A DNA stretch of 53,527 nucleotides from the NCBI GenBank assembly GCA_029263475.1, contig JAJCXK010000010.1:1-53527 (forward strand). Reading direction: 5' to 3'. Under the pieces are notes generated by a model. It saw only the letters and a list, made by a program, of their open reading frames with translations, did not search any database and was not told where the DNA came from. Origin of the DNA: Candidatus Nitrosopumilus sp. GTDB lineage: Archaea > Thermoproteota > Nitrososphaeria > Nitrososphaerales > Nitrosopumilaceae. Below are positions 33,759 through 39,423 of this stretch, one piece after another. The translations under genes were made by a program, and so were the position numbers. The first letter of the stretch is position 1; every line of letters begins with the position of its first letter.

Positions 33759-34697
33759 ATGTCTCTAGATAAAGCAATTCTAAATGAAATCAATGAAAAA
33801 CTATCTAGAATAGAAAAGAAACTGAACATAGTTCCAGATAGAGAGATTGCAATTAATGATTATGAGAATTCGTTAGAATCATTTCAAGACTTTGCAAAAA
33901 ATATTCTGAAACTAGAACCCGTTACAATCAAAAACTATTCTCAGATTATTCTAAAGTTCCTAAATCATTCAAATGGAATCATAAATCCAAATACCGTAAA
34001 GTCGTTCTTTGATTCCAATGGATCCATATCGTCAAAGTCAAATCATCTGAAAGCCTTACGGAAATACGCCAGGGACTTTCTAAAATTAGGCAACTGGATT
34101 GAGGACTTCAAGTTTGAAAATAATTCCAAACTAAAGATAAAGAGCATTCCAGATGACGTACAGTTATCCAAATTTTATGATTCATTGCCGACTGGGGAAA
34201 TTAGACTGATCTTCCTGATCCTACATAATTCAGGTCTTAGAATAGGCGAGGTTTTGAGCCTGAAAGTGTACAATGTCGATACGACTGACGGATTGGTAGA
34301 TGCCTCTGAGATTCACCAGGGTGAGACAAAGCACTCCTGGTTTAGTTGCATAACTCAGCAAACTTGCGCATTACTCGATGAATTCATTGAGAGAAATTTT
34401 GATTATACTAACGGTGAGGATATGGAATCTCTGTTATTTTCCACACCCACCAGAACAGTTCAGCAAGCCTTCAAGGATGCATCTAGTCAATTGGGAATTG
34501 AGATTCATCCGCATCTGTTGAGAACCGTTTTTGCTGACAGATGTACAAAGGCCGGGATCAAGGACAAGTACATTGATGCATTCTGTGGCAGAATATCAAA
34601 GGGAGTGCTGGCAAAACACTACACGGCATATTCTGAAGATGCAATGGTTGAAGTGTATGCGAATGTTGAACCCTTACTTGTTCTTTCATTGGATTGA
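33759..34697 (+). CDS. Tyrosine recombinase (second, intact)
   Basis: 312 residues. A short coiled N-terminus, a core-binding domain (~35-125) and a catalytic domain. Active-site residues: Arg in NSGLRIGEVLSL, HPHLLR (HxxR), and KHYTAYS with the Tyr nucleophile. The second His/Trp box (usually GH) reads CGRIS, so that residue is Arg here. XerA/integrase-like. Directly downstream lie inverted 9-bp sites of the geometry such enzymes recombine (35278-35303, 36021-36050), making it the obvious candidate partner. Confidence 0.88.
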   Translation: MSLDKAILNEINEKLSRIEKKLNIVPDREIAINDYENSLESFQDFAKNILKLEPVTIKNYSQIILKFLNHSNGIINPNTVKSFFDSNGSISSKSNHLKALRKYARDFLKLGNWIEDFKFENNSKLKIKSIPDDVQLSKFYDSLPTGEIRLIFLILHNSGLRIGEVLSLKVYNVDTTDGLVDASEIHQGETKHSWFSCITQQTCALLDEFIERNFDYTNGEDMESLLFSTPTRTVQQAFKDASSQLGIEIHPHLLRTVFADRCTKAGIKDKYIDAFCGRISKGVLAKHYTAYSEDAMVEVYANVEPLLVLSLD

Positions 34698-34705
34698 TTG
34701 CACTC

Positions 34706-34733
34706 TTGCGCATACCTAAAACATCATTTTAGG
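34706..34733. repeat. Half-site TTGCGCATACC and hairpin after the recombinase gene
   Basis: TTGCGCATACC (34706-34716) is the exact reverse complement of the GGTATGCGCAA motifs found at 35294-35304 and 35775-35785. It runs into a hairpin with arms CCTAAAA (34715-34721) and TTTTAGG (34727-34733) around a 5-nt loop, 10 nt after the stop codon, which may help end the recombinase transcript. Confidence 0.5.
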
Positions 34734-35015
34734 GTTGAATGATTATTTTTTTAATTGACCGTATTGCATAATCAATATTCCTACAGTTCGATCCCATGTT
34801 TTTCTTTTGCATGTAGGATGAAATGAAAATTCTTTTTGCATGTAAAATCACAATGACTGCACTTGAAGGTATGTTGCTGTCGAGTTACGCCTGATTTTCT
34901 AGCCATTTTCTTATTATTCTTTAGTTAATTATTTCAAATTTATACTGTGTTGATAAAATTATTTTGAATGTTTTCTACAAGTATAGTTTTTTCTCAACCC
35001 TAAATCAAAACTTTT
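34734..35015. other. Gap before cassette A
   Basis: No gene seen. TTTTGCATGTA occurs twice (about 34806-34816 and 34834-34844), and TTACGCCTG near 34885 is repeated inside cassette B near 36008. These may be the worn remains of a third cassette. The rest is AT-rich without clear structure. Confidence 0.35.
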
Positions 35016-35304
35016 GGTATGTGCAAGAATCACTGATGAAAACTAATCTATCCAACACAAGAATCTGATTGCTACTGATTTTTTGGCTACTAATTGGTAC
35101 TATTTTGTTTACGAGTGGCAATTAGACCCAAATTGGTGTCATGACACGCACAAAAAATGGCAAGAATCTAATTGGTACTGATTGGCATGCGTGTATTCTT
35201 TAAACACACAATTTTGCACAAGAATCTAATTGGTACTGATTGGGTCTAAACATGACAAAATGCAGTGCGTGTCTTCCTGCGCATACTTGGTAAGGTATGC
35301 GCAA
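35016..35304 (+). repeat. Cassette A: structured non-coding repeat element
   Basis: Bounded by GGTATGTGCAA (35016-35026) and an inverted site ending GGTATGCGCAA (35304). Core repeats begin CAAGAA: copies at 35058 (degenerate), 35161-35185 and 35219-35243 (identical over 25 nt), with a 12-nt partial copy at 35090-35101. CAATTAGA (35119-35126) is complementary to TCTAATTG in copies 2 and 3; TTAGACCCAA (35122-35131) is complementary to TTGGGTCTAA (35240-35249). It shares with cassette B GATGAAAA-Y-TAATCTAT (35035-35051), CACGCAC, and a 19-nt identical block at 35186-35204. A T-rich stretch after GATCAACC (35343-35356) could terminate a transcript. No protein coding seen. Confidence 0.7.
35278..35303. 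repeat. dif/att-like inverted site at the end of cassette A
   Basis: TGCGCATAC (35278-35286) and GTATGCGCA (35295-35303) form perfect 9-bp arms around an 8-nt centre TTGGTAAG. Arm length and spacing match core sites of tyrosine recombinases. In RNA it would be a stable hairpin. Confidence 0.55.
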
Positions 35305-35342
35305 AATCGTTCATGATTAATTACTTCAAAATACGGTTTTTT

Positions 35343-35356
35343 GATCAACCTTTTTT
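35343..35356 (+). terminator. T-rich terminator-like stretch after cassette A
   Basis: GATCAACC followed by T6, preceded by another T6. The matching place after cassette B has GATCAGCC followed by T7. Archaeal transcription often ends at such T runs. Confidence 0.4.
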
Positions 35357-35474
35357 CTGATTAGAGTTCAGTTGTTGAACTGATGAAACACTGCAATTCA
35401 ATTTCTGAATAAATTTACATCAAAAAGTCAGATCTATTTCAAGTACTACGACCCCCTTACACTATACGATTACA

Positions 35475-35699
35475 ATGAGTACATATAACATACAGCAAAA
35501 CGTCGTCTCCGAGCAGACTAAGACCAAACTCGGAGTAGTCGGACTGGTAGCCTTGCCAGTTGTAGCAGCAATGTATTCGGAAGGAAGCATTGCATTGGAA
35601 CAAGTACCCCAGATACTTTCAAGCGGGATATTCCCAATCGGAATGACCGTACTGTCATGGGCAGTCGCTGCAAAGTTGGCACTGAAGTTGAGAAAATAG
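35475..35699 (+). CDS. Small two-helix membrane protein between the cassettes (74 aa)
   Basis: MSTYNIQQN start, then hydrophobic helices at ~19-35 (GVVGLVALPVVAAMY) and ~50-70 (GIFPIGMTVLSWAVAAKLALKL) and a basic end. Codon use is clearly more GC-rich than in neighbouring island genes (GTC, CTC, GCC frequent), pointing to strong expression or different origin. The size and two-helix layout resemble major capsid proteins of spindle-shaped archaeal viruses, but no sequence signature is known to me. Starts after a C-rich stretch CGACCCCCTTACAC without a clear ribosome site. Confidence 0.6.
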   Translation: MSTYNIQQNVVSEQTKTKLGVVGLVALPVVAAMYSEGSIALEQVPQILSSGIFPIGMTVLSWAVAAKLALKLRK

Positions 35700-35774
35700 G
35701 ATACAATTCCTCTTTTTCAATATTTTTCTGATCTATTTTTTAATTATTTTGTTCAATGATAATGTTGCACTTTA

Positions 35775-36050
35775 GGTATGCGCAAACTATCGATGAAAAT
35801 TAATCTATAACATGCAAGAAGCTGTTTCCCCCAACACATGCTTGCACCTTTTTGTTTTATGGTGGATTTTTGGGGGAAATTGTTCCAATCCACGCACGAA
35901 AAACAGCAAGAAGCTGATTCCCCCAAATACCCATGCGTGTATTCTTTAAAGTATGATTTTCATCAAAGAAGCTGTTTACCCCAATATCCGCCAAAACCTG
36001 ATATTTCTTACGCCTGTATTCTTGCGCAGTCCTAGTATAGTATGCGCAAG
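35775..36050 (+). repeat. Cassette B: homologous structured element with a different core
   Basis: Same layout as cassette A. Front motif GGTATGCGCAA (35775-35785); GATGAAAATTAATCTAT (35792-35808) is 23 nt before core copy 1, the same distance as in A. Core copies CAAGAAGCTGTTTCCCCCAA (35815-35834), 35907-35926 and 35965-35984 (one or two changes each); copies 2 and 3 are 58 nt apart, exactly as in A. TTGGGGGAAA (35870-35879) is complementary to TTTCCCCCAA of copy 1 and, over 9 bp, to copy 2. CATGCGTGTATTCTTTAAA (35932-35950) is identical to A. The sequence after CAAGAA is unrelated to A's. No protein coding seen. Confidence 0.7.
36021..36050. repeat. dif/att-like inverted site at the end of cassette B
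   Basis: CTTGCGCA (36021-36028) and TGCGCAAG (36043-36050), perfect 8-bp arms; the inner part GTCCTAGTATAGTA is less symmetric than in the site at 35278. Together the two sites bracket the 74-residue protein gene and most of cassette B. Confidence 0.5.
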
Positions 36051-36084
36051 GAATTGGAGTTTGTGAATGTTGGTTATTTAGATT

Positions 36085-36102
36085 TTTGATCAGCCTTTTT
36101 TT
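36085..36102 (+). terminator. T-rich terminator-like stretch after cassette B
   Basis: TTTGATCAGCC followed by seven Ts (36096-36102), matching the stretch after cassette A in sequence and relative place. Suggests that each cassette is transcribed on the + strand and ends here. Confidence 0.4.
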
Positions 36103-37929: not shown

Positions 37930-38193
37930 ATGAAAAAATCGATGAGTATTGCAGAAGCATCTAAAAAAGAAAAAAATGACAATCAATTACATCTAAACAC
38001 TATAAATGAATCACACAAAACTATTTCTGAAAGAGTTAATGCAATCTTACTAAAGATGGCGCAAAAGGAAGGTGTGTCTCTTGTAACATTTGCATATGTT
38101 ACTCAAGGATTTTCAGAATGGCATAACGGTTCTGGCTGGTCTGGTGACTGGGAGAATGGCTTCATTGAACCCGATTTCAAAGAAAGACCTTAA
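37930..38193 (+). CDS. Candidate RiPP precursor (cyclophane/triceptide type)
   Basis: 87 residues. The first ~58 look like a leader: polar and helical, with SERVNAILLKMAQKEGVSL. The last ~29 are quite different, Gly/Trp-rich: GFSEWHNGSGWSGDWENGF, holding two W-x-N motifs (64-66 and 74-76) and a third Trp at 70. In 3-residue cyclophane peptides the maturase joins an aromatic ring to the residue two places on, often Asn or Asp. The gene ends 6 nt before a radical SAM/SPASM gene whose N-terminus looks like GrrM/OscB. No precursor family was recognised by sequence. A second ATG at 37942 is possible. Confidence 0.6.
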   Translation: MKKSMSIAEASKKEKNDNQLHLNTINESHKTISERVNAILLKMAQKEGVSLVTFAYVTQGFSEWHNGSGWSGDWENGFIEPDFKERP

Positions 38194-38199
38194 TCAAAC

Positions 38200-39423
38200 A
38201 TGGAAAGTTCTGAACAGTCTTTGTCAATTACAGAATGCAAAGATGGGGATCTTACCACTTTGGGACCTTTGGAACTACTGATTCTTCAACCCACTTCGTT
38301 TTGTAACATTGCATGTGATTATTGTTATCTTCCAGATCGACAACTTGTCAATCAAATGAGTCTAGATACTTTTTCCAAAATTATGAAAAATATTTTTTCA
38401 AGTAACGTATTGGGCTCAAAATTGACTATTCTTTGGCATGCTGGAGAGCCATTAGCAATTCCGATTAATTTCTACAAACAGGTGAGCAAGGAAATTAAAA
38501 GATTTTCTCCACAAAACTGTCAAGTGACACAATCTATCCAGACTAATGCCACTATAATTAATGATGATTGGTGTAAATTTTTCAAAGATGAAAGTATCAT
38601 TCTAGGTCTGAGTATAGATGGTCCTGACTTCATTCATGATAGACATAGAAAGACACGAGCAGGTGGAAATACACATGCCAAAGTTATGGAAGGTGTAAAA
38701 TTGTTAAAAAAATATGAAATCAAGTTTAATGTAATTTGTGTCCTGACATCTTTCTCATTGGGTTATCCTGATGAAATCTATGACTTTTTTGAAAAAAATG
38801 ACATTAGGCAAGTGGGATTCAATATAGAGGAATCTGAAGGCATTAACACATCTGATACGTTGTCATCTTCTGAAATTAGAAGAAAATTTAGATACTTCAT
38901 GGAACGAATTTACAAACGTGAAAAAGAAGGTCATGTTCAAATTAGAGAATTTCACAAGTTGCGACAATATTTTACACATTCACTTCAAAAGGCATCCGAT
39001 CAACGTATTGGTAGATGTGATATAGATACAAGGAGTTACAGCGTAAGTAGGCCTCTGAATATTATTACCGTTAGCAGTGATGGAGATGCGTCCACTTTTT
39101 CACCCGAGTTACTTGGTATGTTTTCTCCAGAATATCCTACCTTAAAATTTGGAAATTTAACCACTGATAGTATTGAAACAATTGCAAATTCTGAATTATT
39201 TAAAAAAATATTCAGTGATGTAACTGAAGGAATAGCAATGTGCAAAAAAGAATGTGATTATTTTACAATGTGTGGAGGTGGTGCACCATCCAACAAATTA
39301 AGCGAAAATGGCACTTTTAGATCTACTTTTACCAAGTACTGTAAGACACAATTACAAGTTCCAATAGATATTCTCCTGGAAGACTTGGAACAAGAATTTG
39401 GATTGACGAATAAATCTAAATAA
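38200..39423 (+). CDS. Radical SAM/SPASM peptide maturase, GrrM/OscB-like
   Basis: 407 residues. GPLELLILQPTSFCNIACDYCYLPDR at the N-terminus holds the CxxxCxxC cluster site (Cys35, 39, 42) in the wording typical of cyclophane-forming GrrM/OscB maturases. HAGEPLA, QTNAT and LGLSIDGPDFIHD are the SAM and barrel motifs. The C-terminal SPASM region has CKKECDYFTMCGGGAPSNK and a late YCKTQ, ligands of auxiliary Fe-S clusters. It would crosslink side chains in a precursor peptide, most likely the product of the gene just upstream. Needs electrons, probably from ferredoxin. Confidence 0.82.
   Translation: MESSEQSLSITECKDGDLTTLGPLELLILQPTSFCNIACDYCYLPDRQLVNQMSLDTFSKIMKNIFSSNVLGSKLTILWHAGEPLAIPINFYKQVSKEIKRFSPQNCQVTQSIQTNATIINDDWCKFFKDESIILGLSIDGPDFIHDRHRKTRAGGNTHAKVMEGVKLLKKYEIKFNVICVLTSFSLGYPDEIYDFFEKNDIRQVGFNIEESEGINTSDTLSSSEIRRKFRYFMERIYKREKEGHVQIREFHKLRQYFTHSLQKASDQRIGRCDIDTRSYSVSRPLNIITVSSDGDASTFSPELLGMFSPEYPTLKFGNLTTDSIETIANSELFKKIFSDVTEGIAMCKKECDYFTMCGGGAPSNKLSENGTFRSTFTKYCKTQLQVPIDILLEDLEQEFGLTNKSK

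Follow-up and report, generated by a model that had tools for sequence, protein, structure and literature searches.

What purpose do two repeat-bearing, non-coding blocks serve in the genome of an ammonia-oxidizing archaeon? The blocks, A (35016-35304, + strand) and B (35775-36050, + strand), are homologous, contain three direct repeats each and lie in a stretch of 53,527 nucleotides from Candidatus Nitrosopumilus sp., which is called the window here. An earlier note on this DNA had described a repeat motif that changed together with a complementary middle segment and had proposed either a structured RNA or binding sites co-evolving with a partner. Ammonia-oxidizing archaea are among the most abundant marine microbes, and how they gain genes is poorly known. 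Judged by sequence comparison, A and B are probably attachment (recombination) sites of an integron-like gene-cassette system in the Nitrosopumilus group of these archaea; the evidence from arrays and breakpoints comes from a second core, the sister core.

Two homologous units beside a recombinase gene

The layout described in the earlier note was recovered from the DNA. The strings GATGAAAACTAATCTAT (35035), GATGAAAATTAATCTAT (35792) and CATGCGTGTATTCTTTAAA (35186 and 35932) were present, as were the complementary strings TTAGACCCAA (35122) and TTGGGTCTAA (35240) in A and TTGGGGGAAA (35870) and TTTCCCCCAA (35825) in B. The block-by-block alignment of A and B was reproduced by a repeat search with a 60-nt block at 77%; each unit had three repeat copies, the start-to-start step from copy 2 to copy 3 was 58 nt, and matching inverted ends (38 nt, 76%) and matching T-runs (95%) were observed. 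Furthermore, the repeat motif was swapped as a set between A and B, and the complementary segments were still complementary. This likeness was above chance: an nhmmer search of fetched DNA with A as query returned B at 4e-17. No ORF of at least 60 aa was found over A; two overlapping ORFs of 65 and 84 aa lie over B on opposite strands, and both were taken for chance.

Further homologues exist. Five relatives of A and B were found outside the window, namely G071:C29 (E 4e-25), three in G083 (E 6e-12, 6e-12 and 1e-5) and a degenerate one elsewhere in the window's own genome (G000:C14, E 8e-9). The three G083 units are degenerate too, yet G083 has no recombinase of the window's family at E 1e-10. 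Weak matches to positions 20-39 of B in many genomes resembled a widespread element, but were attributed to chance because the 10 checked loci resemble each other around the match and, by eye, are unlike B beyond it. Three other search matches (L002, L003 and L005) showed no unit of the A/B kind by eye.

At the 3' end of each unit we observed a near-perfect inverted repeat of 28 bp, consisting of 10-bp arms and an 8-bp spacer (Table 1). This is the form of a tyrosine-recombinase core; XerA/dif sites are likewise 28 bp long and consist of two inverted arms around a short spacer. A second conserved motif, TTTTTGATCARCCTTTTTT, was found 33 nt past each core; because of it, the right borders of the units should better be set at about 35356 (A) and 36101 (B). 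Half-sites were detected at the starts of A and B (35017 and 35776), and one in the opposite direction at 34706, directly after the recombinase gene; the 325-bp segment that contains it (34704-35028) may have arisen when an insertion split a core. Cores A and B have different spacers (TTGGTAAG versus CTAGTATA). Differing spacers lead to poor exchange by the classical route, and classical exchange between A and B would therefore be poor.

Table 1. Features of the window around units A and B
Feature	Position	Strand	Description
Tyrosine recombinase (integrase)	33759..34697	+	Intact open frame, 312 aa; upstream of A/B; Pfam Phage_integrase 3e-15
325-bp segment	34704..35028	.	35-bp inverted ends (77%) containing half-sites TTGCGCATAC ... 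GTATGTGCAA; between recombinase gene and unit A
Unit A arm region	35016..35276	+	Three direct copies of CAAGAATCTRATTGSTACTGATT and inverted partial copy CAATTAGACCCAA; read as iterons
Core site A	35277..35304	.	CTGCGCATAC-TTGGTAAG-GTATGCGCAA
Conserved motif 3' of core A	35338..35356	+	TTTTTGATCAACCTTTTTT; 95% to B
74-aa hydrophobic protein gene	35475..35699	+	Between A and B; dispersed multi-copy gene
Unit B arm region	35775..36021	+	Three direct, imperfect copies of CAAGAAGCTGTTTCCCCCAA and inverted copy TTGGGGGAAA
Half-site GTATGCGCAA at start of unit B	35776..35785	+	
Core site B	36022..36049	.	TTGCGCAGTC-CTAGTATA-GTATGCGCAA; identical in G071:C29
Conserved motif 3' of core B	36083..36101	+	TTTTTGATCAGCCTTTTTT

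Residues R161, H252, R255 and Y288 of the recombinase, which we take to be the catalytic residues of the family, were invariant in eight aligned relatives. Its best NCBIfam model was archaeal XerA (XerA_Arch), reached with 82.2 bits at a cut-off of 220, and the integron-integrase model TIGR02249 gave 30.1 bits at a cut-off of 265; the system thus fails both the XerA and the IntI model tests. A XerA orthologue above the cut-off was found in none of 26 genomes, as compared to 4 of 14 control genomes. Two solved structures in the PDB, 4a8e and XerA (5hxy), are related to the recombinase by sequence. Relatives at E ≤1e-10, among which fragments and broken genes were counted, occurred in 8 of the 95 genus genomes, and 12 loci were found in a named genome collection, in MAGs of Nitrosopumilus, Nitrosopumilales, Thaumarchaeota and Nitrososphaerota. 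In a tree of 10 of the 11 integrase rows, the row with an internal stop being excluded, the recombinases of the window and of G071:C29 formed a clade of their own (100/100).

Cores, repeat clusters and arrays at related loci

The DNA downstream of 14 recombinase genes was scanned over up to 1600 nt for 10-bp inverted arms (≤2 mismatches) around an 8-bp spacer with a C/T-rich motif behind. Seven of the 14 loci showed this pattern: the window, G071:C29, G000:C26, G071:C15, G071:C32, G071:C11 and JADFLH..37. Shuffled DNA yielded 0.026 per locus, a comparison that flatters the result since the C/T motif was defined after several of the 14 loci had been seen. The other seven loci did not show the pattern as defined, and two of them have ≤221 nt of downstream DNA; JAEHKV..81 has by eye a similar layout with a 7-bp spacer (TCGGGTAATC-TTAGTAT-GATTACCCGA) and was not scored by the scan. 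A recombinase gene beside an inverted-repeat core and clustered motifs, the layout of a tyrosine-recombinase attachment site with arm and core sites, is present here.

In several loci, repeat clusters lie between the stop codon of the recombinase and the core. Within 320 nt behind the stop codon, TAGCT was counted 15 times in G071:C15, 9 times in G071:C32 and in the near-identical G071:C11, 13 times in JADFLH..37 and 17 times in JAEHKV..81; the nine copies of G071:C32 do not exceed the shuffle maximum of 10. Such clusters follow five of the nine recombinases of the other clade. The remaining four have 0 to 3 copies, and G000:C26, which is low in TAGCT, carries GTAGC 8 times. In the window and G071:C29 those 320 nt do not correspond to the arm region; counted in the arm regions of A, B and G071:C29 themselves, the copies numbered 0, 0 and 1. 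Six repeat copies in G071:C15 follow each other at exact 10-nt steps, about one turn of DNA. The unit of G071:C29 contains nine copies of TTCCCC, eight in one direction and one in the other, a number reached by 0 of 200 shuffles; this 8:1 orientation suits protein-binding iterons better than one RNA helix. The best 6-mer was enriched (reached by ≤10 of 200 shuffles) in 9 of 13 regions, among them A (1/200); enrichment was not significant in B alone (23/200), nor in L077b, L102 and L103, and two control stretches gave 82 and 89. For the core-plus-motif, TAGCT and 74-aa-gene core tests, shuffling was done in two-base blocks, which is cruder than the 6-mer shuffles.

There are several core versions, among them the sister core CGTAATC-N8-GATTACG, which belongs to the larger clade, and TGCGCATAC. 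The window-type core (TTGCGCATAC; GCGCATAC), searched with up to 3 mismatches in the 95 genus genomes, occurred at three sites in total, in only two genomes, which are those with the window-type recombinase. The sister core was found at 58 exact sites in 11 of the 95 genomes, the reversed control at none. Ten of these 11 genomes have at least two exact sites, which departs in number from the dif rule of a single site per chromosome, placed near the replication terminus. Exact cores were present in 5 of 8 genomes with a recombinase as compared to 6 of 87 others (Fisher p = 4e-4). Apparently, the core version goes with the recombinase clade; this is an association seen in one contrast of clades. 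The sole viral-contig match to the core pattern (L161) lies in G+C-rich DNA and showed none of the layout in 900 nt; it looks like chance.

In 44 loci fetched for sister sites, recombinases or neighbouring stretches, 129 sister sites (≤2 mismatches) were found in 43 loci, separated by 86 gaps with a median of 517 bp. Of the 78 intervals of at least 150 bp, 41 contained exactly one ORF of at least 50 aa, 17 contained none and 20 contained two to seven. Hence, the sister core shows the tandem short genes separated by sites that mark an integron. In one locus (L119), ORFs of 451, 101 and 123 aa and a short ORF follow one another in this order, each preceded by a site, and the last is followed by a site with a unit. 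A Pfam match was obtained for 6 of 10 scanned cassette ORFs, e.g. multicopper oxidase, histidine kinase, methyltransferase and CbtA.

If recombination takes place at the cores, the likeness of two loci should end there; the ends of homologous segments were therefore compared with the positions of the cores. Of 144 ends, 36 lay ≤25 nt from a core, about eightfold the mean of 4.6 in 1000 random placements (maximum 12); segment ends had been merged, and the near-identical loci L100 and L101 were both counted. The 108 ends away from cores have other causes. As an example, L127:2764 and L124:1135 agree at 97% for 150 nt on one side of the core, and on that side only. These breakpoints are the strongest evidence for recombination that the sequences offer, and they concern the sister core, as against the three sites of the window core.

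Sister units, i.e. non-coding stretches that measure at most about 300 nt and have the GTAATC core at their end, were conserved in L077 (two), L099, L100/L101, L110, L111, L116 and L119. When one of them was searched against the genus, 13 of 95 genomes had matches, of which several were short. The units follow the recombinase-proximal core in L100/L101 and a half-core in L099, and stand at the array end in L119. Additionally, four contigs (L113, L114, L115 and L125; three from G071, one from G090) were seen to break off no more than about 150 nt from a core, an effect expected of repeated sites during assembly. Two cores at a 20-nt step, overlapping by two bases, were noted at L129:1338-1379 and L137:3326-3367 and are like a cassette-free junction.

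Covariation of the repeats and rival explanations

The pairing of the repeated core with the middle segment was examined in an alignment of five units (A, B, G083a, G083c and G071); the partial units G083b and G000:C14 were excluded. One helix joins the middle segment to the core of copy 2, and the strands of a second stem lie on either side of this copy. In the five units 81% of the cells were paired, as compared to 19-41% when the segments were slid, and 12 cells had changed on both sides; in G083c the long pairing is mostly broken. The covariation score was reached by 0 of 500 shuffles, the number of double-change pairs by 14 and the pair types by 74, values inflated by the choice of the pairing structure on the same five sequences. 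The covariation of core and complement is thus real within this small set of A/B-type units. Among eight sister units the expectation failed: the covariation of their stem was not beyond shuffles (251 of 500 reach it), and in the RNAalifold result 2 of 32 pairs had double changes and the covariation term was unfavourable.

That A and B are structured non-coding RNA genes, whose repeated cores pair with the middle segment, agrees with the covariation beyond shuffles in the five units, with the T-run after each unit and with single-strand folding that beats shuffles in A (z -3.1) and, weakly, in B (z -2.0). When the minus strand is folded as DNA, however, a comparable excess appears (z -2.2 and -3.1), and the core inverted repeats alone, as single DNA strands, fold far above shuffles (z -4.8 and -5.2), which is expected of any such inverted repeat. 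Moreover, the two covarying helices of A/B cross and cannot, therefore, share one simple fold; Rfam gave no match at A or B at gathering thresholds, the sister stem was without covariation, the motif of G071 is oriented 8:1, and the units are located at recombinase-type sites. Direct repeat copies that have no pairing partner also change with the motif. Most simply, the covariation of A/B is a motif swap in which direct and inverted copies changed with their reader: if one protein reads the motif both ways, a change of its specificity alters all copies and keeps them complementary, and covariation arises without RNA. Of the two possibilities in the earlier note, binding sites are thus the better supported one, and the structured RNA, weakened by the missing Rfam match, the crossing helices and the sister stem, is distinctly improbable.

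The main rival to attachment sites of a cassette system is accretion: the units would be ordinary attP, attL and attR sites of integrative plasmids or viruses piled up at shared sites, and the genes between them remnants instead of singly captured cassettes. In G000:C26 the recombinase gene is preceded by one for a D5_N/DUF5906 primase-helicase, so that this recombinase at least may be part of an integrative element; in G071:C15 and G032 the corresponding position is occupied by a long ORF that gave no Pfam match, and some sites are, by eye, conserved downstream only, like attL. The 517-bp median spacing and the single short ORF in 41 of 78 intervals are unlike whole elements, however, and no relative of the recombinase turned up when viral contigs were scanned with its alignment. 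We regard accretion as rather unlikely, though a good deal less so than the RNA. It is most improbable that the repeats are replication iterons of an integrated plasmid. Clustered direct repeats do adjoin mobile-element genes here, but the genes between 33759 and 36101 encode the recombinase and the 74-aa protein, neither of which Pfam identifies as a known replication protein, and in several loci the clusters sit between the stop codon of the recombinase and the core.

Proposed mechanism, known systems and neighbouring genes

If A and B are attachment sites, the recombinase would attach to both of the inverted 10-bp arms in the 28-bp core, cut at the spacer edges and exchange strands within the 8-bp spacer, and the window's own sites may be active in this manner. 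The upstream repeats would be iterons (arm-type sites) for the same recombinase or for a direction-setting partner, and may serve as loading sites for the recombinase or for a directionality factor. Genes between cores would travel as cassettes, and the 74-aa gene between A and B may be one that was captured. A wider picture, about as likely as not, is offered tentatively: a gene-capture platform of the Nitrosopumilus group with a Xer-like recombinase, a repeat-bearing leader site and symmetric dif-like cores that separate mobile single-gene cassettes, with recombinase-less clusters mobilised in trans, and with several mutually incompatible versions that arose by joint change of core, iterons and recombinase. 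The window would represent a rare one of these, with a core of its own and two leader sites that differ in iteron type.

The sites of integrons of the attC type carry RYYYAAC/GTTRRRY boxes and a single-strand fold. By inspection, the sister consensus CGTAATC/GATTACG has no AAC/GTT box. Integrons, including those with archaeal IntI/attC as presented in the available text of Ghaly et al. (2022; PMC9668308), are alike in the recombinase gene, the adjoining site, the tandem short genes split by recombination sites and the clusters with no recombinase nearby. They differ in that the recombinase described here is not IntI, the cores are symmetric inverted repeats and the recombinase-side site bears repeat clusters. 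According to the same text, that survey of archaeal integrons relied on attC and IntI searches.

The 28-bp core with two arms and a short spacer, and genes flanked by core sites, are shared with Xer/dif systems, as far as the accessible parts of the reports on the dif (pdif) modules of Acinetobacter plasmids (PMC6449649) and on archaeal XerA/dif (PMC2958812) describe them. The present recombinase is nearest to XerA and XerC-like structures; in contrast to Xer/dif, it is encoded beside its site and scores below the XerA cut-off, and there are many spacers, several core versions and repeat clusters at the recombinase-side site. The cryptic integrated elements of Thaumarchaeota (Krupovic et al. 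2019; PMC6563490) are alike in an integrase beside an attachment site, variable cargo and, sometimes, S3H helicases. In the available part of that paper they range from 2.6 to 98 kb with own att sites each, and tandem single-gene modules and repeat-bearing sites do not figure in its description of them.

The earlier note knew of no described family with this layout. Within the accessible parts of the open-licence literature searched, including PMC6563490, PMC9668308, PMC8371274 and PMC2958812, no description of the layout and hence no counterexample was found; the general plan, however, is a known one, that of tyrosine-recombinase attachment sites. If the proposal is true, these archaea would have a lineage-specific analogue of integrons that relies on another recombinase and on dif-like cores as its sites. 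It could account for part of the variable islands in ammonia-oxidizing archaea, and its sets of recombinase, core and repeats would form a natural series in which to study changes in site specificity.

The 74-aa gene gave 28 matches, a number that includes fragments and the window's own copy, spread over 10 of the 95 genus genomes, and its protein matched 380 protein clusters at E ≤0.001. Pfam, NCBIfam and PHROG provided no name for it, and a phage collection held no match. A core-like match (≤3 of 12 positions mismatched) was found behind 6 of 23 copies, where about 1.4 are expected; a core flanking each copy is thereby ruled out, and the carriage of this gene between A and B may be incidental. 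By eye, the flanks are conserved, with GTTCAG...CTGAAC upstream of most of 15 copies. At L082:1322-2554 a Cas1 gene (PF01867, 1e-60) was observed directly upstream of one copy, and similar gene ends precede, by eye, four other copies in L079, L080, L083 and L084. Elsewhere in the window, positions 37930-39423 encode a radical SAM enzyme that resembles the GrrM/OscB maturases, which form cyclophanes (444 bits at a cut-off of 310); ahead of it lies an 87-aa ORF with the C-terminal part EWHNGSGWSGDWENGF, a candidate peptide precursor.
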